This document shows, piece after piece, positions 8,331 to 63,697 of a DNA stretch of 64,000 nucleotides. Location of the stretch: assembly GCA_010356995.1 (NCBI GenBank), contig ML996706.1:62001-126000 (forward strand), in the 5' to 3' direction. Below the pieces are notes generated by a model. That model did not search any database, was not told where the DNA came from, and saw only the letters and a program-made list of their open reading frames with translations. Source of the DNA: Trichodelitschia bisporula (Eukaryota; Ascomycota; Dothideomycetes; Phaeotrichales; Phaeotrichaceae). The translations under genes and the position numbers were made by a program. The number at the start of each line of letters is the position of its first letter. Within the stretch, counting starts at the first letter, position 1.

Positions 8331-9611
8331 GTTTTCTAATGGAGGAGTAGGCGTGAAGTGGAGAGTGAGATTACGGGGCGGCGTTTCGACTTATAAGGCC
8401 CAAGGAATGTCGACAAAGTGAGCGAAGGATGCTCAGCGTGATGTAGGAAAGCGGAGTATTGTGATGTCACTCAATGAAAGAATCGCGAATAGTGTCATGA
8501 ACTGCGCCAGAAGTGGACAAAGAAACTAAGAACAGGAACACAGAATAACAAAGTGAGATCACAATACGGTCTCCTAGCTCCTCCGCAAAGCGTGGTACAG
8601 ACCGGCTCTCTGATTTTCTTTCTTTCATTCATGAACTTTCAGCTGCTCTCTCCACCCCATCTTCACACACAGTATACTCAACGGTAATTAGTCTCAGAGT
8701 CGACTACAGGGCTTGGGGAAAAGACTGGCATATGAGTCGATCTGGTTCTAGTATTTTCATCTAAGTGGATTCACATTACCATAATAAGGTCTGAAAGCCT
8801 GCCCGAGGCAAATGCCCCAAAATAGGCTCTTCTGGTCCGCTGAAACTGGCTCGTTATCAGTTAGGTTTTTACAACCTGCGCACGAGGCTGAGGGAAGGCT
8901 GAGTTTCAGGTAAACTTACGGTAGGAAGTTGAGGAATGCCAGGTAACGAGCATGAGCTGTAACGCATTACACAAATCAGAGCAGTAAGCGGCTCGTCCGT
9001 TCATGAGCGTTCGTGACCTATCGATAAAAGCGATGAACCAACATAAGATGACAGGATGGCAGAGCTGGCAGAACTGGCCGCGCTGGGGCGTCACTCACCC
9101 AAGCGTTATCGATAAGTACCCCTGTATCGATAAATACCCGATGGGCCGAAGAAGGGCCGAAGAAAATCCGAGAAAATCCCGAGATCTATGGTCCGAGCTC
9201 AACAAGCTGCCAAAGCCCAATTGGCTTCCAGAGTGAACTTCCACCCTCCATTCAGAGCACAGCACACACCCTTGTCTTCCGCAACCACCTTTGTTGTCCA
9301 CCATCACCACCATGCCGAATTTTGAGGTCCTCTTTCGAAACGTGAGCTTTATGGCCATCACGCATCAATATGAACTCACCGAGATAAACATCGAAATACA
9401 ATCTACACGATACGCCTGGATTCCTTCCTGAATACATCGATGCATAGTGCCAGAGCGCGCGGCCCTGTCGCTTTCTCCCAGAAGTGTCCGTCAACCATCG
9501 GAAACTCCGGCGTATAATGCATCAGACGGAACCTTAAAGCCTAAACCAGAAGGTATGTATGAGAATGCAACACAACAAGCTGATTCTGATATAAACTAGA
9601 AGCCCGACTAT
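8331..9611. other. Intergenic region upstream of the repeat array
   Basis: No supported gene. Contains a short cluster of ATCGAT-centred motifs (listed separately) and leads into the hairpin array. Confidence 0.5.
9019..9133. promoter_or_regulatory. Cluster of three TATCGATAA motifs
   Basis: TATCGATAA occurs at 9019-9027 and 9125-9133, and the perfect palindrome TTATCGATAA at 9106-9115. Each holds GATA sites on both strands (TATC and GATA back to back). Three copies in 115 bp are more than expected by chance, but no adjacent gene start makes use of them obvious. The same core reappears at the right arm of one palindromic repeat (about 14019-14026). A binding-site role is inference. Confidence 0.3.
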
Positions 9612-9734
9612 GAAAGCCAGGTGTGCCGCTTGCTCCAGTCCCATATGCTCTCAGAATTGCAATGGTTCTTCATGAAGGTCCAGTACCACGAAGGTAATCA
9701 TCATATGAGCATAGGACTTGGACGAGCAGTCCCA
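9612..9734. repeat. Left-end repeat copy 1 (second copy at 10019-10151)
   Basis: Starts GAAAGCCAG and includes TATGCTCTCAGAATTG, AATGGTTCTTCATG, ATCATCATATGAG and GGACTTGGACGAGCAGTCC. The block at 10019-10151 repeats all four segments in the same order with scattered substitutions and a small insertion. It is a distinct repeat type confined to the left end of the array. Confidence 0.75.
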
Positions 9735-9738
9735 ACCG

Positions 9739-10018
9739 AAATACGAAAGCTGACTCGAAGGCCGAGTACGAAAGAAGAATACGAAAAGCAAACTCTGAAG
9801 ATCGAGTACAGAAGAAGCATACGAGACGCCGACCCGAAGGCCGAATACGAAGGAAGAATGCCAAACGCCAACTCCGAAGATCGAGTACAGAAGAAGCATA
9901 CAAGACACCGACCCGAAGGCCGAGTACGAAAGAAGAATACGAAACGCTGGTCCGAAGGTTGAGTACGAAAGAAGAATACGAAAAGCTGACCCAAAAGTCG
10001 AGTACCGAAGAAGCATAC
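9739..10018. repeat. Short tandem repeat tract, GAAGGCCGAGTACGAAAG type
   Basis: About seven degenerate units of roughly 35 bp built on GACCCGAAGGCCGAGTACG followed by AAAGAAGAATACGAAACGC. A related tract with GACCCGACGGTCG and ATGATACGAGAGATG units fills about 10175-10430. Both are linker tracts of the larger array. Confidence 0.7.
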
Positions 10019-10448
10019 GAAAGCCAGTTGTGCTGCTTGTTCAAGTCCCTATGCTCTCAGAATTGTAATGGTTCTTCATGCAAAAGTCTGTAACCATAAA
10101 CCGACAAACTGATCATCATATGAGTATGGGACTTGGACGAGCAGTCCTCAACTGAAGTTTGAAAGCGGACCCAACGGACGACTACGAAGAGCTGGCTTCG
10201 AAGACTGAGCCTGAAGAGGTCTTGAAGCCCGAGTACGAAAGAATGGTACGAAAGATGACCCGACGGTCGCGTACGAAAGAATGATACGAGAGATGACCCG
10301 ACGACCGCGTACAAAAGAATGAGACGAGAGATGACCCGACGGCCGTGTGCGAAAGAATGAGAGGAGGGATGACCCGACGGTCGTGTACGAAAGAATGATA
10401 CGAAAGCTGACCCGAAGGCCAAGTACGAGATGAGCCTTATCAAACCCT

Positions 10449-13085
10449 TGTATCTTCTCAGAAAGTTTTCTTCATCAGCTTGATCAGAATCACGAAGGTA
10501 TTTCATCATTGAGGATACCGGCCATGGCCTTGAGGGACGAAGACTTAGCTGTGCCGGAGATATCAACCTATACCGATGTAAGCGTGTTCGAGACGACTAC
10601 GAAAAAGCTGACCTAAGACAAAGCAGAGGCCAGACCAGGAATATCGAGAACGAGAAGAGAGATGACCCGGAGGTCTACGAAAGAGACGATCTGATATAAC
10701 CCAGAGGCCAGGCCAAGAAGACCGAGTACGAGAAGAGAGTTGACCCGAAGGTCTACGAGAAAGCTGGCCGGATACAAACCCGGATCAGCAAAGAGTGACC
10801 TGAAGGTCTACGAGAAAGCTGGCTTGAGACAAATCCAAGGCAAAGCCAAGAAGATCGAGTACGAAAAGAGTGTTGGCGCGAAGGCGTACGAAAAAGCCGG
10901 CCTGATACAAACCAGAGATCAGACCAAGAAAGTTGTCTACGAAAAGAGAGCTGACCCAAAGAGCCCGTATCTTCTCAGAGAATATTCTTCGTCATCGCGA
11001 TCAGAGACGTGCATATGTCTGTCATCATTGGAGATACAGGCGATAGCCTTGAGGGACATTGACTCAGCATCTCGGAGACATGAACATATACCGATGTAAG
11101 CGCGCTCGAGACTGAGCTGACCCGAAGGTGTACGAAAAAGCTGACCTGAGATAACTCAGATGCCGGACCAAGAAGAGTGACGACCCGAAGGTCTACGAGA
11201 AAGCTGGCCTGCAACGAACCAGAGACCACACCCAGAGGAGAGTTGACTCGAAGGTCTACGAGAAAGCTGACCTGGGAAAACAGGCCAGACCAAGAAGATT
11301 GAGTATGAAAGTTGCCCGAAGGCCGAGTACGATAGTTGACCCGAAAGTCAAGTACGAGATGAACCTTGTCAAGCCGTTGTATCTTCTCAGTCAATATCAT
11401 TCGTCAGCTTCATCAGAGACGTGCAAATGTCTGTCATCATTGAAGATACAGGCGATGACCTTGAGGGACATTGACTCAGCGTATCGGAGACATAAACCTA
11501 TACCGATGTAAGCGTGTTCGAACAGAGCTGATCCGAAGGTCTACGAGAAAGCGGCCTGAGACGAACCAACGGCCAGACCAAGAAGAGTGATGACACGAAA
11601 GCGTACGAGAAAGCCGTACTGAGCAAACCGGAAGCCGGACCAAGAGGAGTTGACCCGGAGGTCTACGAAAAGGCTGACCTGAGACGAAGCAAAGGCCAGA
11701 GAGTTGACCTGAGACGAAGCAAAGGCCAGAGAGTTGACCTGAAGATTTACGAAATGACTGGCCAGAGAAGGATCAGAGGCCAGACTAAGAAGATTGAGTA
11801 CGAGATGACCACCAAGGTCGAGATACGACACAGCTGAGCCATGTCAACCCTTTGTATCTTCCCAGAAAAGCTTCGTCAACTTGTTCAGAGCTTATGTTCC
11901 ATCATTTGAAGATACAAGGCATGACCTTAAGGGATGAAGATTCACCTGTCTCGGAGACATAAACCTATACCGATGTAAGTGTATTCGCGACGAACGACCC
12001 GAAAAGCTTCCCAAGACAGTTACGAGAGAGGCTGCCCAAGGCAGCTAAAAAGTACGAGACAACTTGTCTTTGGCACGTCCAAAGAAGGATACGAGAGATG
12101 TCGGCCTTTGAGGGCGCAACGGGCGTACGAAAGATGTCGACCTCCAAGGGCGACGGCGTACGAAAGACCTCCCTGACCTCTGGGGTGCGGAGAGAGTACG
12201 AGATGATCACCAAAATCCACTTACCTGACAGGACCACAAAGGTCGAGATGCGAGACCGGTGAGCCATCTCACACCCCCGTATCTTCTCAGGAGGGCTTCG
12301 TCAACTTGTTCAAAAGCTGTTTTCATCATCGAAGATATAGGCTCTCCCGGAGATACATGAACCTATGCTAATGTACACAGTATTCGAGACAAACGACCCG
12401 GCGGACTCAAAACAATTACGAAAGAAGTTGCCCCAGGCAACTAAAAAGTACGAGACAACTTGCCTTTAGCAAGTCCAAAAAAAAATACGAGAGATGCCGA
12501 CTTCAGAGGGCGCGACGTGGATACGAAATATCCTCTTGACCTCTTAGGACGCGGAGAAGAGTACGAGATGTCTTCCAAATCCACTTACCTGACAGGACCA
12601 CGAAGGTCGAGATGCGAGAGAGGTAAGCCATCTCAAACCCCCGTATCTTCTCAGAAGAGCTTCGTCATCTTGTTAAGAAGCTTTTGTTTCGTCATCGAAG
12701 ATACAGGCCACACTCACCCGTCTCGGAGTGACATAAAACCTATACCGATGTAAAGAGTGTGCGAGATGGACGACCCAAAAATTCCACAAGGGTTACGAGA
12801 AAGGTTGCCAATGGCAATTCCATTGGATAACTGAATAGATACGAGACAACTTGCCAACGACAAGTCCAAAAAAGCGTACGAAAGATTTCGACCTCTGAGG
12901 GCGCGGAGGAGTACGAGATGACTACTAAAATCCACCTACCTGATGGGACCACGAGACTAAGATACGAGACAGGTGAGCCATATCAACCCTGTGTACCTTC
13001 TCAGAAATGCTTCCTCAACTTGTTAGGAGCTTGCTCCATCATTTGAAGATACAGGGCATGCCTTCAGGGTTGAAGTCTCACCTGC
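10449..13085. repeat. Palindromic core copies 1 to 7 with their linkers
   Basis: Cores at about 10449-10580, 10970-11099, 11380-11509, 11825-11977, 12244-12374, 12606-12753 and 12957-13085. Each has GTATCTTCTCAG or a close variant, a central TTGTTCAGAGCTT-like stretch, GAAGATACAGG, and in most the right arm CTCGGAGACATAAACC. Copies 4 to 7 also have a left arm CGAGACAGGTGAGCC complementary to the right-arm CACCTGTCTCGG. Linkers between copies 2 and 4 use GACCCGAAGGTCTACGAG, itself a small hairpin (GACC, CGAA loop, GGTC). Linkers after 11990 contain GCTGCC-CAA-GGCAGC (12031-12045) and GTTGCC-CCA-GGCAAC (12427-12441). Confidence 0.75.
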
Positions 13086-13093
13086 CTCGAATT

Positions 13094-13417
13094 GTCAATG
13101 GCAAGCGAGAGAGCGTTAGTATACGGAAAAGCTTGCCAACGGCAAGTGAGAGAGCGCAACAATAAGAGAGAACTTGCCCACAGCAAGTGAGAGAACGCAA
13201 CCATACGAAAGAACTTGCCCATGGCAAGTGAGAACGCAACCATACGAGAGAACTTGCCCGTGGCAAGTGAGAACGCAACCATACGAGAGAACTTGCCTAT
13301 GGCAAGTGAGAGAACGCAACTATACGAGAGAACTTGCCAGTGGCAAGTGTAAGAGCGCAACCATACGAGAGAACTTTTTTATTGCAAGTGGGAAAGCGTT
13401 CCCAGGGCAAACGCTTT
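13094..13417. repeat. Hairpin minisatellite, about seven units of 40-46 bp
   Basis: Units consist of ACTTGCC, a 3-nt loop (AAC, CAT, CGT, TAT, AGT and similar), GGCAAGT, then GAGAGAACGCAACCATACG. Stems are nearly invariant while loops differ from unit to unit. The block closes with a further perfect 8-bp hairpin, AAAGCGTT at 13393-13400 and AACGCTTT at 13410-13417. Confidence 0.8.
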
Positions 13418-13430
13418 TAAAGTTTTACGT

Positions 13431-13596
13431 CAGATAGGTTTATGTTTCTTCAACACAGGTGAGTCAAGTCAACCCTTTGTATATCCTCAGAAATGCCCAT
13501 TAACTTGTTCAGAGCTTGTCTCATCATTTGAAGATACAGGGCATGCCTTCAGGGTTGAAGACTCACCTGCCTCGAAGAGACACAAACCTATCGATG
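13431..13596. repeat. Palindromic core copy 8 (166 bp)
   Basis: Left arm starts CAGATAGGTTTATGTTTCTT and ends in CAGGTGAGTC; right arm GACTCACCTGCCTCGAAGAG then ACACAAACCTATCGATG is its near complement. A second, inner pair is CCCTTTGTATATCCTC with GAAGATACAGGG. The whole unit could fold into a long imperfect stem-loop. Confidence 0.8.
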
Positions 13597-13870
13597 TAAA
13601 CAGTGACCGTAGCGGCGGAGACGCGAAGTACGAAAGAATTTGTCCCTGACAGGTGTGGCCGTTGCGGCGGAGACACGAAGGTACGAAAAAACTTGCCTAT
13701 GGCAAGTGCGGCCATAGCGGCGTAGACATGATGGTCTCTAAGAGTTGTCTAATGGTCAACTATACGAAAGAACTTGCCAATAACAAGTGAGGGAGCGCAA
13801 ATTTAAGAAAAAATTTGCCCATGACAAGTGAGCGTTGCCTAGGGCGGGCAAAGGCTCTAAAGGCTTACAT

Positions 13871-14026
13871 CAGATAGGTTTATGTCTCTTCCAGAGAGGT
13901 GAGTCAAGTCAAACCTTTATCTCCTCAGAAATACCCTTCAACTTGTTCAGGACTGACTCATCATTTGGAGATATAGGGCTTGCCTTGAGGCTCCCCTGTC
14001 TTGAAGAGACACAAACCTATCGATAA
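13871..14026. repeat. Palindromic core copy 9 (156 bp)
   Basis: Left arm CAGATAGGTTTATGTCTCTT pairs with right arm AAGAGACACAAACCTATCG; about 28 of 33 positions are complementary over the full arms by hand alignment. The right end contains TATCGATAAAC. Confidence 0.8.
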
Positions 14027-14228
14027 ACTGTACGAAAGAACTTGCCTATGACAAGTGAGAGAGCCGAACTTTAAGAAAAAACTTGTCCAGGACAAGTGTG
14101 GGCGTAGCGGCGGAGACACGAAGGTCTCTAAGAGTTGTCCAGTGGTCAACTGTACGAAAGAACTTGCCCATGACAAGTGAGATAGCGCAACATTAAGAAA
14201 AAACTTGCCTATGACAAGTGAGTGAGAT

Positions 14229-14386
14229 CAGATAGGGTTATGTCTCTTCTAGATAGGTGAGTCAAGTCAAGCCTTTGTATCTCCTCAGAAATGCCCTTCA
14301 ACTTGTTCAGGACTGACTCATCATTTGAAGATACTGGGCTTGCCTTGAGGTTTACCTGCCTCGAAGAGACACAAACCAATTGATGA
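14229..14386. repeat. Palindromic core copy 10 (158 bp)
   Basis: Left arm CAGATAGGGTTATGTCTCTT, right arm CGAAGAGACACAAACC. Central segment AACTTGTTCAGGACTGACTC is shared almost unchanged with copy 9, so copies 9 and 10 are the closest pair and probably the most recent duplication. Confidence 0.8.
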
Positions 14387-14392
14387 ACTGTA

Positions 14393-14706
14393 CGAAAGAA
14401 CTTGTCTATGACAAGTGTGGCCGTAGCGGCGGAGAGTACGAAAGAACTTGCCTATGGCAAGTGTACGAAAGAACTTGTCGATGACAAGTGTGGCCATAAC
14501 GGCGGAGACACGAAGGTCTCGAAGAGTTGTCCAATGGTCAACTGTACGATAGAACTTGCCTGTAGCAAGTGTACGAAAGAACTTGTCGATGACAAGTGTA
14601 CGAAAGAACTTGCCAATGACAAGTGTACGAAAGAACTTGCCAATGACAAGTGTACGAAAGAACTTGCCAATGACAAGTGTACGAAAGAACTTGCCAATGA
14701 CAAGTG
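14393..14706. repeat. 27-bp hairpin minisatellite, right end of the array
   Basis: Units are GTACGAAAGA followed by ACTTGnC-nnn-GnCAAGT. The last four units are identical, reading ACTTGCC-AAT-GACAAGT in the stem, while earlier ones read ACTTGTC-TAT-GACAAGT (14400-14416) or ACTTGCC-TAT-GGCAAGT (14446-14462). Because the unit is 27 bp, repetitive frames stay open on both strands (for example 14402-14707 plus), but these are not taken as genes. Confidence 0.8.
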
Positions 14707-14750
14707 AGAAAGCGTGGCCTGAGGCAGACGCTGATGTTTTACTTACCTGG

Positions 14751-16653
14751 TATTTGGGTCGAAGCCATGACACTGTATGTCGAGGCAGTGTGCAGTCAAA
14801 AGTCGATGGGGGCGTTGGGTGGAGCAAAGAGTGGAAGAAAAGGTGCTGCAGTCAAAGACTGTGGAAGAAGATGTGGATGTGGATGTAAAGGAAAGGTTTC
14901 TGGAGAGCCCCTCGAGGGGTATTTAAGGACCTGGGGAGCGCTAGTTGATATCGTGGGCACCGCTGGTGGATTCACCACAGCAGGCAGGTACCAGGGGTGC
15001 CAGCATTATGGGAGTGTGGGGAGGGGGACGATGAGGTGAATCGCTAGTTGATTTGCCAGAACGGGCGGGTACGCTGGGGTGGCGGCACGATGTGGGTGTG
15101 CGGAGCGGACGATGAGGTGAATGATTGCTATCGGGTGGGTGCTGCTGCAGCGGGTGATGGGCGGCACACGCTTTTTCCGAGCAGGTGCAATTTGGTACCC
15201 CATTCACTGGCACCTGCCAAACCGGGTCGAGCCCATCGGCCCATGCCGACTCGGTACCGGCTCCATGCCGGCTTGGCACCGGCCCGTGCCGACTCGGCAC
15301 CGTCACATGCCGACTCGGCACCAGCCACATACCGACTCAGTGCCGGCCATATACCGGCCATAACAACCGGGTGCAAGCGGCAACTTAATGAGTGAGCGGG
15401 CCGATGCTTGAAGAGAGCACATCAAAGGAGATGGGGAAGCATTTCACTGGGTTTGTTCAGCAAACGTATACGAATCGTAATTAGCATCGGATGGCGAAGA
15501 ACACATTGTACATGGAATGGTGAAGAGGAAACCGAGCCTTGAGTTTGATAGCGAGCGAGCAAGTATGCGATTTGCAATGCAATTGTGCTTTACGAACTAT
15601 GAACCATAATGATCTACAAATATAATGCTGCAAGTCAAGCGGAGAAGCCAACCCTCCTTGGCTCCAACAGCATCTACTAGCGTGTCAAACCGTATGATGC
15701 ACGATGCTGAACCGGTTATCATACTGGGGAAGGAAATGCGGTATTTCTAGGGCTCCAGAACGAAATGCTTTGAGAAGAGTTTGCTCTATGATAAAAATCC
15801 ATGGGAAGAGGTGAGGTTGGAGCTCACGGACAACATGTTACCAGTTGAAAATATCAGTGCATGTGATTCAAGGACTCGATGCTCCATAACGAGGTCGTGG
15901 AAAATTTCTTGAGACTCTGAAGCTTATGATGGGAGAGAGTGGTACCCGTATATTGCCTAAAGGCGCTCTCCATGGATAACAATCCTAGTTCATGAGCAGC
16001 GGACGCTTCATTGTGTAGCAGGGTAATAATCTACAGCTTCATGGATGTTCCGAATGGGAAAATCCCACTCCGGTCCAGCCTCGTCCACCAGCACGTGATC
16101 GAGCCTTGCGCCCCAAGGCGGTGATGGACATGTGATGCTGAATTAACAGTGAAGGTCCAAAGGATGGCAAACGCGGTCTAGAGTTCAAGTAATGCAGTTC
16201 ACTCATCTATGACATTTCAAATATATTTCTCATCAACGCCTCTGTGATCCTCCTTTCGAGCTTTTGGTATATGCCGCCGGCCAAATTTTGGCAGCGATTT
16301 TGGTAGAATGCCACGATGGTGCTCAGGAGCATCACCAACTTTCATGGCGTTACGAGCCAGCACTCAACTAAAAGGTTGATGCACTATCACCAAGGCTTCT
16401 AGCATAGCGTCACATATGGCGCTTGATTACCTGCAGTACCTGTTACCCGATGCACCCATTACCCGCAGCATCCATACCCGCAACGCCCATCGCGCTCAGT
16501 CCCCATTACCCGCGGAACACATCACCTGCAAGAATTCATGAACTTCAAGGTCAAAAATCAGCAAACCTTAGGATCAATATTTAGCTCCAGAACACCTAAA
16601 AATGAATTTATTCCCCTAATAATGTCGACGTTCCATCAAATCTCCAATGTCTT
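14751..16653. other. Intergenic region right of the array
   Basis: No supported gene. Holds a small GC-rich palindromic minisatellite near 15.3 kb and, at 16435-16520, several TACCCGCA-like repeats that do not amount to a telomeric tract. Confidence 0.5.
15230..15360. repeat. GC-rich palindromic minisatellite
   Basis: Five to six units of about 21-24 bp around TGCCGACTCGGCACC. Several are perfect short palindromes, such as GTGCCGA-C-TCGGCAC at 15286-15300 and TGCCGA-C-TCGGCA at 15308-15320. Others diverge on both sides. Confidence 0.75.
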
Positions 16654-49039: not shown

Positions 49040-49353
49040 TGTCGCAAAGAACGATGTATATAGACGTTAAACAGCAATTGAGGAGATGATTTTGAGGAAA
49101 TGACTCTGTGGGATTGAGTCGTGGTGGCGGAAGAGAGCGGCGGGAGAGGACGGTTGTTGGGAGCTCACCCGCACGCGACCCCGGATTCCGACTGGCGTCA
49201 TGTTCTAGACGATGGAAGCCTGATCCCTGTAGCCCTTATCGATAGCATTCGAGCCAGGCAGAGACGAAATCTTGGCGATTTTTTCGCCGACCCTCGTCTT
49301 GAGTCGCCGCTCCATCACCCGCGAATACACAATCAAACCACCATTCCTCCATC
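49040..49353. other. Shared promoter between the small membrane protein and Esf1
   Basis: A 314-bp divergent intergenic region. The Esf1 frame happens to be open across most of it, which can mislead start prediction. Confidence 0.5.
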
Positions 49354-51553
49354 ATGTCCTCCCGCCCCAAACAAAAGACTGCCAAAGGGCGTGCAGCTCA
49401 AGAGGGACAGTCCGAGATCAGTTCGTACTCCTAGGTATCCCAATGAACAAGCTAACGCGTTTCCAGCTGATCCCCGATTCCGCTCCATCCAAACCGATCC
49501 ACGCTTCCGCCTCCCCTCCAAGAAACACACACACGTCAAGCTCGACAAGCGTTTTGCCAAGGTCCTTAAGGATGATGACTTCTCCCAGAAGGCCAGTGTC
49601 GATCGCTACGGTCGGAAGATCGACAAGGCCGCTGGCCGCAAAGACCTCGAGCGCCTGTACAAGCTAGAATCAGACGAGGAGGACGAAGACGTGGTGGCAG
49701 ATGATGATGAGGTGCTCAAGGAGCTGAGACGGGCGGATAAGAAGTACGATCCCGCGCGGGACGGCGGCTTCTCTTCGTCAGAGGAGGACAGTGACAGTGA
49801 TGAGGAGGTGGAGGTGGAAGAGGAAGTCGATGAGGCAGCACTCTTCCCTTCAAAGGCCGATGAGGTTCCTTTGGGAGAGATTTCCTCTCGGCTGGCGGTG
49901 GTCAATCTCGACTGGGACAATATCCGCGCCGTAGACCTTCTCGCCGTGGCATCGAGCTTCGCACCCGCAGACGGCAAGATCATCAACGCGATCGTTTATC
50001 CAAGCGAATTCGGGCGAGAGCGCATGGACCGTGAGGAGCTGGAAGGACCGCCGCGGGAGATCTTCAACAATAGCAAGGCGAATTCAGATTCAGATACTGA
50101 GTCAGACGCCCAATCAGGAACCGAGGACGTCGATTCTGAAGACGAGGAAGAGGAAATCAAGAAGCGCCTACTACAAGAAGAGAAAGCGGAAGATTTCGAT
50201 CCCTCAGCCCTGCGACGCTACCAGCTGGACCGGTTAAAGTACTACTACGCAGTGTTGACCTGCTCATCTCCCACTGTGGCAAAGGCGCTGTACGACGCTA
50301 TGGACGGCCGCGAGTACCTCTCCTCCGCTAACTTCTTCGACCTCCGCTTCATCCCCGATGACGTATCATTCGACGATGAGGCCCCACGCGACGAAGCCAC
50401 TACCATCCCGACCGGGTACCGTCCTACCGAGTTCGTAACCGACGCGCTGACGCACTCGCGCGTCAAGTTAACGTGGGACGCCGAGGACACAAAACGCAAG
50501 GAGGTTCAAAAGCGGGCCTTCAGTCGACAAGAAATGGACGAGAACGACCTCCAGGCCTACATTGGAAGCGCATCGGAGTCGGAAGAGTCAGAAGCGGAAG
50601 CCGAGGCCGAGGCTGGGAAGGGAGATCGCCGGGCAGCATTGCGCGCGGCACTGGGCCTTGGAGGAGCGCCGACGAAGGCGAAGGGTCGGAAGCAGGAGGC
50701 CCCGGTCGGCGATATGCAGATCAGCTTCACACCCGGCCTCTCGGCGACGGCAAAGAAGGGCCCTGTATTCGAAAACGAGCCGATTATCGAAGAAACGACG
50801 GCCGAGCAGTACATTCGCAAGGAACGCGAGCGGAAAGCCAAGCGGAAGGAGAAGGCGCGGGCACAGCGCCTCGGCTTGCCGGACCCAACAGAGGCTGCAG
50901 ACGACAAGTCTGCGGACGAGGCAAAGCCCACAGACAAGAAGGACAAGAAGGACAAGAAGACGAAGAAAGACAGGAAGGCCAAGTCGCCCATCCCCGATGA
51001 AGAAGACCCCTTCAACGACCCCTTCTTCACAGACCCCGTCGCCGCTCTCGACGCCGCTAAAAAGGCGCGCAAAGCCGAGAAGGCGCGTCTCCGCGCCGAA
51101 CGCGCGGCAGAAGAAGCAGCGACGTCTGCGCAGCGCGCCGAGCTGGAGCTGCTCATGGACGACAATACGAATTTGCGCCACTTTGATATGCGCGAAGTTA
51201 TGAAGGCCGAGAAGGAGGCTAAGCGCGGGGGCAAGAAGGGGAAGAATCGGGGGAAGAAGGGCGGGGACGATGGGGCTGAGACGAAGCCGGCGGATAATTT
51301 TAAGATGGATGTCCACGATCCGCGGTTCAGTCGCTTGTTTGAGAGTCATGAGTTTGCGATTGATCCCACAAATCCGCGGTTCAAGGGTACGGAGGGTATG
51401 AAGGCGTTGTTAGAGGAAGGGCGGAGAAAGAGGGCAAGGGAGGGGGATGTCGAGGGGGCGCCGGAGGAGAAGAAGGCCAGAGCGAGCGGCACATCACGGA
51501 GCGAGGATATCACGCAGCTGGTGGAGAAGGTCAAGAATAAGTCGAAGCACTAG
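49354..51553 (+). CDS. ESF1: Pre-rRNA processing protein Esf1
   Basis: Nucleolar protein of the small-subunit processome, required for 18S rRNA maturation. Exon 1 (49354-49420) starts MSSRPKQKTAKGRAAQEGQS; a 46-nt intron joins it to exon 2 (49467-51553) at EITDPRFRSIQTDPRFRLPS. Total 717 residues. I chose this start because the sequence matches Esf1 N-termini, whereas the unspliced frame opening at 49121 has no such match. Conserved parts: KKHTHVKLDKRFAKVLKDDD, VDRYGRKIDK, LAVVNLDWDNIRAVDLLAVA, IVYPSEFGRERMDREELEGP, YQLDRLKYYYAVLTCSS, FFDLRFIPDD and, near the end, DPRFSRLFESHEFAIDPTNP with RFKGTEGMKALLEEGRRKRA. Acidic Asp/Glu/Ser tracts alternate with Lys-rich ones (KKDKKDKKTKKDRKAK), typical of nucleolar proteins. 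Confidence 0.96.
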
Positions 51554-60978: not shown

Positions 60979-61348
60979 GTTGCGCGAGAAGGGAGTGCGA
61001 GTGCTAGACAGCTAAACTTCTTCAGCCGGGGAGCCTGAGGGCTATGTAAGCTCGGAGTTCCTCGATGCCGGTGGGAAGTGTAGCTGTATCCATGGTCAAT
61101 GGCTTCGGAAAGGAAGGGGAGGGAGGGGAGGTCGAACCTGAATGTTCGCTGAAGCTCTCGTCCCGAGCCGGTAACGCGACCGGGGGTGGGCACTGGTGCA
61201 TCTAATCTTATCTTTTTACATTTGCGCCGCCACTTTTTTCTGCGGCGCATCGCTAGAAACTTTCCTTCGACATCTTGATCGTCCGAAATCGCCATCCCCA
61301 CTCCCATACCCTAAGCGCAGACTCAGGAACTGTAATACGACAGCCGAC
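60979..61348. other. Divergent promoter region between PanC and Dbp7
   Basis: A 370-bp spacer. The Dbp7 frame is open through part of it without an ATG. Confidence 0.45.
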
Positions 61349-63697
61349 ATGGCCGACGACGGTCTCCTGCTCAATTTTTCCCTCGGTGACGGTCCTCTCA
61401 CCACCAAATCAGCCATCACCGGCGGACCTTGGAGGGCCAGAAGACGAGCTCAGAAAGTTGCGGCGTTCAGCAATGGGACGCTCCTTTCGACCCAGCAACC
61501 CAATTCTTCAGAGAATCCAGACTTTGGGTCACGGCCAGCTAAGAGAATACGAGTAGACGATTCCCGACCGCATAGCTCTAAGCGTTCAAGTTCATCCGCC
61601 AACCCCACATATGAGGCGCCGAAACAAGTCGTATCGTCACTATTCTCCTTCAACCCGAAAGCTACCTCTGAGGCCGCAAAGGAGCCGGCCCAGGCTGAAG
61701 ATGAGCCCGTCGAACCGTCCAATGCACCTCTCACCAAGGAACAACTGAACTTCGTGAATTTGGATATCTCCCCCTCTCTTGCGGCGCATCTCACCCAAAA
61801 GATGAACATTTCCGCACCGACAGCTATCCAAAAAGCCACCATTCCCCAACTTATCAAGGAGGACGCCGACGCCTTCATTCAAGCTGAGACTGGTTCCGGC
61901 AAAACGCTCGCCTACCTACTTCCCATCGTCCAGAGGATCATGCAGCTGTCTGAGCTCAAAGATGCCAACGGCAAGGACCTCCTCCATCGGGACTCTGGTC
62001 TTTTTGCCATAGTGCTTGCTCCTACCCGCGAACTGAGCAAGCAGATAGCTGTGGTCCTTGACAATCTTCTTCGCGCTGCGCACTGGCTCGTCGGCGGTAC
62101 CGTCATTGGTGGCGAGAAGAAGAAATCCGAAAAGGCCCGTCTGCGGAAGGGCCTCAACATCCTGGTTGCGACTCCTGGTCGTCTGGCAGATCACCTTGAG
62201 CACACCGAAGCCCTCAATGTGAGCAACGTACGATGGCTTGTGCTCGACGAAGGTGATCGGCTGGTGGAGCTCGGGTTCGAGGCAGACATCAAGAAGATTG
62301 TCAGCAAGCTGGATTTCCAAATGAAGAAGAGCTCTGCAAACCCAATTAAAGGCCTTCCGGAGAAGCGCGTCAACATTCTGTGTTCAGCAACCATGAAAAT
62401 GGACGTGCAGCGACTGGGCGAGATCAGCTTAAAGGATGCTGTGCATATCCACGCCTCAACCACTGACCCTACGGAGAACGTGAATGCTACGACAGACGAC
62501 ACCAAGTTCCTGGCCCCTGCACAGCTCAAGCAAAGTTATGCTATCGTACCGGCTAAACTACGTCTTGTCTCGCTAGCGGCTTTCCTCAAGCGCTCCTTCG
62601 CGCGCCACGGATCTGTGATGAAGGCTATAGTCTTCATCTCGTGCGCGGACTCAGTGGACTTCCATTACGAAGTCTTCACCCGCAAAGAGGAATCCGAAGA
62701 CACCGAGCAGAAAGAATCAACAGAAAAGCCAAAAACTCCAGTAACTCCAGTAACGGCTACTCCGAAATCCCAGAAGATGTCAAAGTTTCAAGGCAAAGCC
62801 GAGCGAAAGCCCCCCGCGCCCCCCACCGAAGTCACCACCTCCGCCATCTCTCCCACCGTCTCCAGCCCCACAAACACAGTAACCTGCTACCGGCTCCACG
62901 GCTCCTTTCCCCAAGCCACCCGCACCAAAACCCTCCAAGCCTTCACAAAGGACACTTCCCCCTCCTTCCTCCTCTGCACCGACGTCGCCTCCCGCGGCCT
63001 CGACCTCCCAGACATCGACGTGGTAATCGAATACGACCCGCCCTTCAGCAAAGACGAACACCTGCATCGCATCGGGCGTACCGCACGTGCGGGGCGCAAT
63101 GGCCGGGCTATGATTTTCCTCCTCCCGGGACCGGAGGAGGGTTATATCCAGGTGCTCGATAAGCTGCGGTCGGAAGGCGCGGCGGGCCTGGCGCGCCACA
63201 CGGCTGACGAGTTGTTGAAGAAGGGCTTGCCGATGCCCACGGCGCCGGATGGGAAGAACGTCGAGGACCGCGCGACGGAGTGGCAGCTGGGCATCGAACG
63301 CTGGGTGCTCGAGCACCCAGGTATGCTCGAGGCCGCGCGGCGCGGGTACCAGAGCCACATCCGCGCGTATGCGACGCATGTCGCGGCGGAGCGGTATATG
63401 TTCAATATCAAGGAGCTACACTTGGGGCATTTAGCGAAAGCCTTCGGGCTGCGTGATAAGCCTGGCAGCATCAACGTGCCGGGACTGCGGCAGAGCGCGG
63501 GTAAGGTTAAGACAGAGAGGGTGCGGGCGGGTGTTGAGGGTGGGAAGCGGAAGAGGGTTGATGGGGCGGGGAGGCAGGCGAGGGATAAGGCGGATTTGGA
63601 TTTGCCGGGGGCGGTGAGCGCGGATGATGCGGCGAGGAGGATGAGGATGAAGGTTAAGAAGATGATGGGGGGGGCGTCGGAGTTCAATATTGCGTGA
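61349..63697 (+). CDS. DBP7: ATP-dependent RNA helicase Dbp7
   Basis: Nucleolar DEAD-box helicase for 60S ribosomal subunit assembly. Intronless, 782 residues from the ATG at 61349; the frame upstream opens only at a GTG. The N-terminus MADDGLLLNFSLGDG is a Dbp7 signature. Q motif NISAPTAIQKATIPQLI, Walker A AETGSGKT (about 179-186), VLAPTRELSKQ, motif II as DEGD (residue 300 onward) in place of DEAD, usual for Dbp7, SATMKMD, then TDVASRGLDLPDIDVVIEY and HRIGRTARAGRNG. A Pro/Thr/Lys-rich insertion (KPKTPVTPVTATPKSQ) sits in the second RecA domain before CYRLHGSFPQATRTKTLQAF. The C-terminal extension includes IRAYATHVAAERYMFNIKEL and HLGHLAKAFGLRDKPG, followed by a basic tail. Confidence 0.96.
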   Translation: MADDGLLLNFSLGDGPLTTKSAITGGPWRARRRAQKVAAFSNGTLLSTQQPNSSENPDFGSRPAKRIRVDDSRPHSSKRSSSSANPTYEAPKQVVSSLFSFNPKATSEAAKEPAQAEDEPVEPSNAPLTKEQLNFVNLDISPSLAAHLTQKMNISAPTAIQKATIPQLIKEDADAFIQAETGSGKTLAYLLPIVQRIMQLSELKDANGKDLLHRDSGLFAIVLAPTRELSKQIAVVLDNLLRAAHWLVGGTVIGGEKKKSEKARLRKGLNILVATPGRLADHLEHTEALNVSNVRWLVLDEGDRLVELGFEADIKKIVSKLDFQMKKSSANPIKGLPEKRVNILCSATMKMDVQRLGEISLKDAVHIHASTTDPTENVNATTDDTKFLAPAQLKQSYAIVPAKLRLVSLAAFLKRSFARHGSVMKAIVFISCADSVDFHYEVFTRKEESEDTEQKESTEKPKTPVTPVTATPKSQKMSKFQGKAERKPPAPPTEVTTSAISPTVSSPTNTVTCYRLHGSFPQATRTKTLQAFTKDTSPSFLLCTDVASRGLDLPDIDVVIEYDPPFSKDEHLHRIGRTARAGRNGRAMIFLLPGPEEGYIQVLDKLRSEGAAGLARHTADELLKKGLPMPTAPDGKNVEDRATEWQLGIERWVLEHPGMLEAARRGYQSHIRAYATHVAAERYMFNIKELHLGHLAKAFGLRDKPGSINVPGLRQSAGKVKTERVRAGVEGGKRKRVDGAGRQARDKADLDLPGAVSADDAARRMRMKVKKMMGGASEFNIA

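Follow-up and report, generated by a model that had tools for sequence, protein, structure and literature searches.

A 64,000-nucleotide stretch of the genome of the fungus Trichodelitschia bisporula (assembly GCA_010356995.1, contig ML996706.1, positions 62,001 to 126,000; hereafter the window, numbered from its first letter) carries, between 9.6 and 14.75 kb, an array of palindromes on the plus strand that represent box C/D small nucleolar RNA (snoRNA) anatomy on the minus strand. The array can probably be regarded as a gene whose noncoding transcript is the polycistronic host of tandem orphan C/D snoRNAs; these would probably once have been intron-encoded, and the linkers between them may bind protein. 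That the units belong to the box C/D class is highly likely, and their processing from one polycistronic precursor has about an even chance of being correct. Tandem orphan C/D snoRNA arrays are best known from mammals, and their role is debated. Literature searches, which covered open-access papers, found no such array in fungi among the papers listed. With its compactness and its repeated motif resembling a protein site, a fungal array of this kind would make the role of such arrays testable, and would also open to test how snoRNAs are released after the decay of introns.

Box C/D snoRNAs carry two boxes, C (RUGAUGA) towards the 5' end and D (CUGA) towards the 3' end, and an adjoining terminal stem. 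A first-pass annotation of the window had described ten related cores with an apparently novel, two-level palindrome design and had offered a structured noncoding RNA locus as one explanation. Related cores lie where it placed them, and its best three correspond to units 3, 2 and 1; however, the array comprises twelve units, all on the minus strand, from a first box C at 14324 to a last box D at 9651, and it has a linker motif that the annotation did not mention. Neighbouring units are separated by 345-519 bp, measured from box C to box C. The supposed inner palindrome, GTATCTTC/GAAGATAC, is the box C/D terminal stem, with box C (ATGATGA) and box D (CTGA) on the inner sides of its 5' and 3' arms, respectively. 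For the core, the idea of a novel design is not supported, since its anatomy is that of box C/D snoRNAs, to which some units add a longer flanking stem; the suggestion of a structured noncoding RNA locus is supported. Ten units share this terminal stem, and two (units 11 and 12) form a second family with a different one. A terminal stem of at least five pairs is predicted for all twelve units, interrupted by mismatches in units 3, 9, 10 and 11. Box C is exact in nine units and box D in eleven. The earlier statement that nothing here encodes a transposase or reverse transcriptase agrees with the absence of any Pfam match in both stop-to-stop frames of at least 150 amino acids that lie in or overlap the array.

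The units were delimited from box C to box D by their boxes and stems, and most of them were also recovered by scanning. An exact scan (RTGATGA, then CTGA 30-130 nt on, with an adjoining stem of at least five pairs) of both strands of the window returned seven places on the minus strand and none on the plus strand. Six of the seven are array units, namely units 1 (14285-14324), 2 (13925-13964), 6 (12287-12329), 8 (11387-11440), 9 (10975-11028) and 12 (9651-9704); in 200 dinucleotide shuffles of the array the mean was 0.025 and the maximum 1. A loosened scan, devised after units 4 and 5 were known, found eight units and two other places (shuffle mean 0.055), thereby including unit 4 (13001-13042), with the box C ATGATGG, and unit 5 (12651-12697), with the degenerate box C CGATGACGA. 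Both scans miss unit 3 (13487-13527), which has one mismatch in its terminal stem, unit 7 (11862-11905), with box C ATGATGG and box D CTGG, and units 10 (10458-10509) and 11 (10057-10119). Clear D' and C' boxes are present in units 8, 9 and 10. When Rfam was searched without a cut-off over 9000-15000, 24 of the 27 listed matches were C/D snoRNAs, all 24 on the minus strand and distributed over units 2, 6, 8, 9 and 10; the best of these sub-threshold matches was SNORD31 at unit 9, with an expectation (E) value of 0.004. A covariance model trained on the ten first-family cores recovered units 1-10 at E 5.5e-20 or better, as expected by construction; it also gave weak matches to unit 12 (E 0.51) and to one place on the plus strand (E 1.1), and it did not find unit 11.

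A second repeated feature, the motif YUYUCGUA, is located between hairpins in the linkers on the minus strand (9746-14705, from the motif at 14684 to that at 9746). Within 9500-14900, TCGTA occurs 72 times on the minus strand, 67 of them as TYTCGTA, and never on the plus strand, compared with 3.7 copies per 5.4 kb of strand in the rest of the window. TTTCGTA is the commonest 7-mer of the array (40 copies), and no 7-mer exceeded 11 copies in 30 shuffles. Of the 67 TYTCGTA copies, 46 are preceded at a distance of 0-4 nt by the end of a hairpin of at least six pairs (one defect tolerated), against 23.6 expected on the basis of 600 random positions. In predicted ensembles, the four bases preceding TCGTA are 71-81% unpaired and CGTA 35-60%, and in 732 of 733 circular shifts the openness is lower than that of the five-base motif itself. 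Nrd1/Nab3-type sites were considered and rejected, as C or T follows GUA in 58 of the 72 copies, unlike the GUAA and GUAG motifs of these proteins. A literature search with four motif strings matched 25 papers, and the 10 of them that were listed yielded no fungal motif.

Base pairing in the linkers points to the minus strand as the RNA strand. All 23 hairpins with ACTTG/CAAG arms, which are conserved, form standard inner pairs when read on the minus strand; in 12 of them this includes a U-G pair whose plus-strand counterpart would be C-A. As several are recent copies, they do not amount to 23 independent events. The small hairpins that the first-pass annotation saw in the linkers are present (90 on the minus and 64 on the plus strand), but their number is only modestly above chance, because 15 shuffles gave 74.5 (standard deviation 6.7) and five other stretches 53-75. 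The satellite and chromosome-structural explanations raised earlier are disfavoured, since box spacing, wobble pairs and motif all indicate one RNA strand.

The annotation had also envisaged several such arrays in the genome, and one further array was found on the same contig as the window, at 555 kb (C20:555 kb). A pattern of three spaced motifs has 12 occurrences genome-wide, of which 11 fall in the window and the remaining one at C20:555 kb, with none in the controls; a two-motif pattern has 19, of which 13 are in the window, five at C20:555 kb and one on C19 (reversed control 2). In a 4.5-kb stretch of the second locus, which lies on the minus strand, TYTCGTA occurs 17 times on that strand and never on the plus strand; the ends of hairpins, different in sequence from those of the first array, precede 12 of 16 motifs (5.0 expected), and TTTCGTA is again the top 7-mer (14 copies; shuffle maximum 8). 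Three related C/D-like units adjoin this array, one of which passes the scan, one has a weaker terminal stem and one lacks box C. Two of these units contain an internal helix, GCCAGCGG/CCGCTGGC versus GCTAGCAA/TTGCTAGC, in which, as read from the sequences, three pairs are changed on both sides. ACACGCTTACATCG is common to this locus and units in the window, and a pattern written from both loci matches four places in the window, one at C20:555 kb and, with three mismatches, one on C11. BLAST of one array against the other yielded five short alignments (20-31 nt), the best with E 7.5e-4. The 8-kb stretches around the C11 and C19 matches each have three TYTCGTA on one strand (about 0.6 expected) and contain no dense motif array. 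A U3 identity for the second locus was rejected (15.8 bits versus a cut-off of 34). In addition, about 210 bp within the second array (C20:556.1 kb) show 74-93% identity to 25 other genome places listed, two of them less than 150 bases from a contig start; this stretch is a dispersed repeat inserted into the array.

Based on these features, a minus-strand noncoding RNA gene of roughly 14.9 to 9.5 kb would produce a polycistronic precursor of twelve tandem, mostly orphan box C/D snoRNAs. Its putative 5' end (14746-14940) comprises a TATA-like TTAAATACC near 14927, a pyrimidine-rich stretch and an ATG at 14767, recognized by eye, and a strong 5' splice-like CCAG/GTAAGT at 14746 from the splice-site listing. 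A 21-22 bp tandem repeat at 15237-15356 lies just upstream of this putative promoter. In each unit, boxes C and D, joined by the terminal stem, would form a kink-turn; the C/D core proteins are expected to bind it, leaving a short RNA of about 55-80 nt shielded from trimming. Originally the unit was probably encoded in an intron whose signals have since decayed, and most units lack complete splice signals: units 1, 3, 4, 5 and 7 have 5' splice-like sites 20-40 nt ahead of box C (in unit 12 the site lies at 118 nt), and TTGAC followed by YAG occurs downstream of units 1 and 7. Decay of signals around fungal snoRNAs is among the events described in PMC3596301. In units 1-4, the long flanking stem (for example 13433-13602 around unit 3, with similar ones at units 1, 2 and 4) could replace splicing by providing a site of RNase III-type release. 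In Schizosaccharomyces pombe, a noncoding snoRNA precursor is known to be cleaved by RNase III (PMC12508059). The approximately 70 YUYUCGUA sites between linker hairpins would most likely serve as repeated protein-binding sites.

Guides of C/D snoRNAs typically form 10-21 pairs with ribosomal RNA (rRNA) or small nuclear RNA upstream of box D or D'. None of three conserved rRNA patterns was found in the assembly, and the guides were therefore compared only with a provisional S. cerevisiae rRNA sequence, stretches of which align at 65-88% to a protist ribosomal DNA (rDNA) contig. The units look orphan because guide matches to this rRNA are about at chance level: of the 21 guides adjoining D or D', 3 form at least 10 pairs, versus an average of 1.6 in 12 shuffles. 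The guides of unit 8 (D') and unit 12 (D), with 11 pairs each, were rejected because their number is near chance and their D+5 positions do not coincide with known methylation sites. For the units at C20:555 kb, no duplex next to box D was present among the matches listed.

This lack of a convincing rRNA target for any guide, judged against the provisional yeast rRNA and with no target claimed here, is one of several observations that weigh against the proposed host RNA for C/D snoRNAs. Box C is altered in units 4, 5 and 7, and one of these has an altered box D as well; moreover, box C and box D are only 40-47 nt apart in units 1-7, which is short for a C/D snoRNA. At the gathering score, the only Rfam match in the window is one transfer RNA, and no array unit is matched, a score that marks known families and not the box C/D class itself. 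Folding energy prefers the minus strand only slightly (18 of 25 array windows versus 139 of 292 elsewhere), and the hairpin pairing is the stronger strand evidence. The complement of the linker motif on the plus strand is likewise more open than its average. Finally, the long complementary outer arms reported by the first-pass annotation are not general: they are strong in units 1-4, where paired 90-nt flanks reach -64, -78, -75 and -65 kcal/mol, but not in the other eight (-40 to -55 kcal/mol). Swapping the flanks gave an average of -45.6 kcal/mol, but swaps among units 1-3 match the true pairs in strength.

Other explanations were considered. The transcript might act as a long nuclear scaffold RNA, in which the twelve C/D modules would protect it and hold it at the nucleolus and the approximately 70 YUYUCGUA sites, framed by hairpins, would titrate one RNA-binding protein. 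This is possible but doubtful; if true, it would represent a fungal counterpart of the mammalian snoRNA-related long noncoding RNAs (sno-lncRNAs) or of S. pombe mamRNA, with a sister scaffold encoded by the diverged second locus of the contig. It is unlikely that the locus is a decaying pseudogene array, produced by tandem duplication of one or a few working C/D snoRNAs (such as units 8-12) and consisting mostly of functionless copies and linkers. Such decay could account for the altered boxes in units 4, 5 and 7, the shortness of units 1-7, the orphan guides and the incomplete splice signals, but most copies keep their boxes and stems intact, the motif is kept while hairpin sequences diverge, and the same motif supplies the commonest 7-mer in the second array, which shares only short BLAST matches with the first.

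An ordinary intron-encoded cluster of rRNA methylation guides, with one small intron per unit in a spliced host RNA, appears improbable. N. crassa C/D snoRNAs are described as mostly intronic (PMC2780460), and the 5' splice-like sites before five of the twelve units, together with the TTGAC and YAG that follow units 1 and 7, are compatible with this arrangement. However, no such site lies near box C in units 2, 6, 8, 9, 10 and 11, the provisional yeast rRNA offers no convincing guide target, and the units are paralogous and not different from one another. No strict intron-like match occurs inside the array, which is a weak argument because density predicts only about one. A source of small interfering RNAs or microRNA-like RNAs (milRNAs) is very improbable: the long outer stems at units 1-4 would suit it, but they are confined to part of the array, snoRNA release accounts for them equally well, and the linker hairpins mostly have 5-9 pairs.

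The proposed host RNA shares features with several known systems. Noncoding fungal precursors with several C/D snoRNAs each are known from N. crassa and from the fungal clusters I-III in noncoding host genes (PMC2780460, PMC3596301). Those clusters contain different, mostly rRNA-guiding and mostly intronic snoRNAs, whereas the present array has one family of ten paralogues and a second of two, which lack clear guides and are set among hairpin-rich linkers. In mammals, tandem paralogous C/D snoRNAs that lack known targets lie in one host RNA, as in the human Prader-Willi arrays SNORD115 and SNORD116 (PMC11608373). The tandem paralogous organization is alike, with the lack of targets provisional and the host RNA predicted in our case; unlike the array, whose intronic state is doubtful, the mammalian units are intronic and imprinted. 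The likeness would be one of analogy, with no claim of homology. A further fungal example is the S. pombe mamRNA-snR107-snoU14 locus, whose noncoding C/D precursor is cut by the RNase III Pac1 and whose mamRNA is named for binding Mmi1 and Mei2 (PMC12508059). It likewise has C/D snoRNAs on a noncoding precursor, which here is predicted, but it comprises two dissimilar snoRNAs and no tandem array, whereas our array has a different motif in about 70 copies and no known protein.

The window also contains two ribosome-biogenesis-like genes, an ESF1-type gene (49118-51553) and a DEAD-box helicase gene with an SPB4-type extension (61175-63697). Outside this genome, an IMG/VR contig that looked RNA-phage-like by eye gave no Rfam match at the gathering score; its positions 1-83 are a fragment of eukaryotic 28S rRNA, and it is probably a chimeric assembly. 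A contig filed under a Clostridium metagenome-assembled genome is eukaryotic rDNA (18S, 5.8S and part of 28S).

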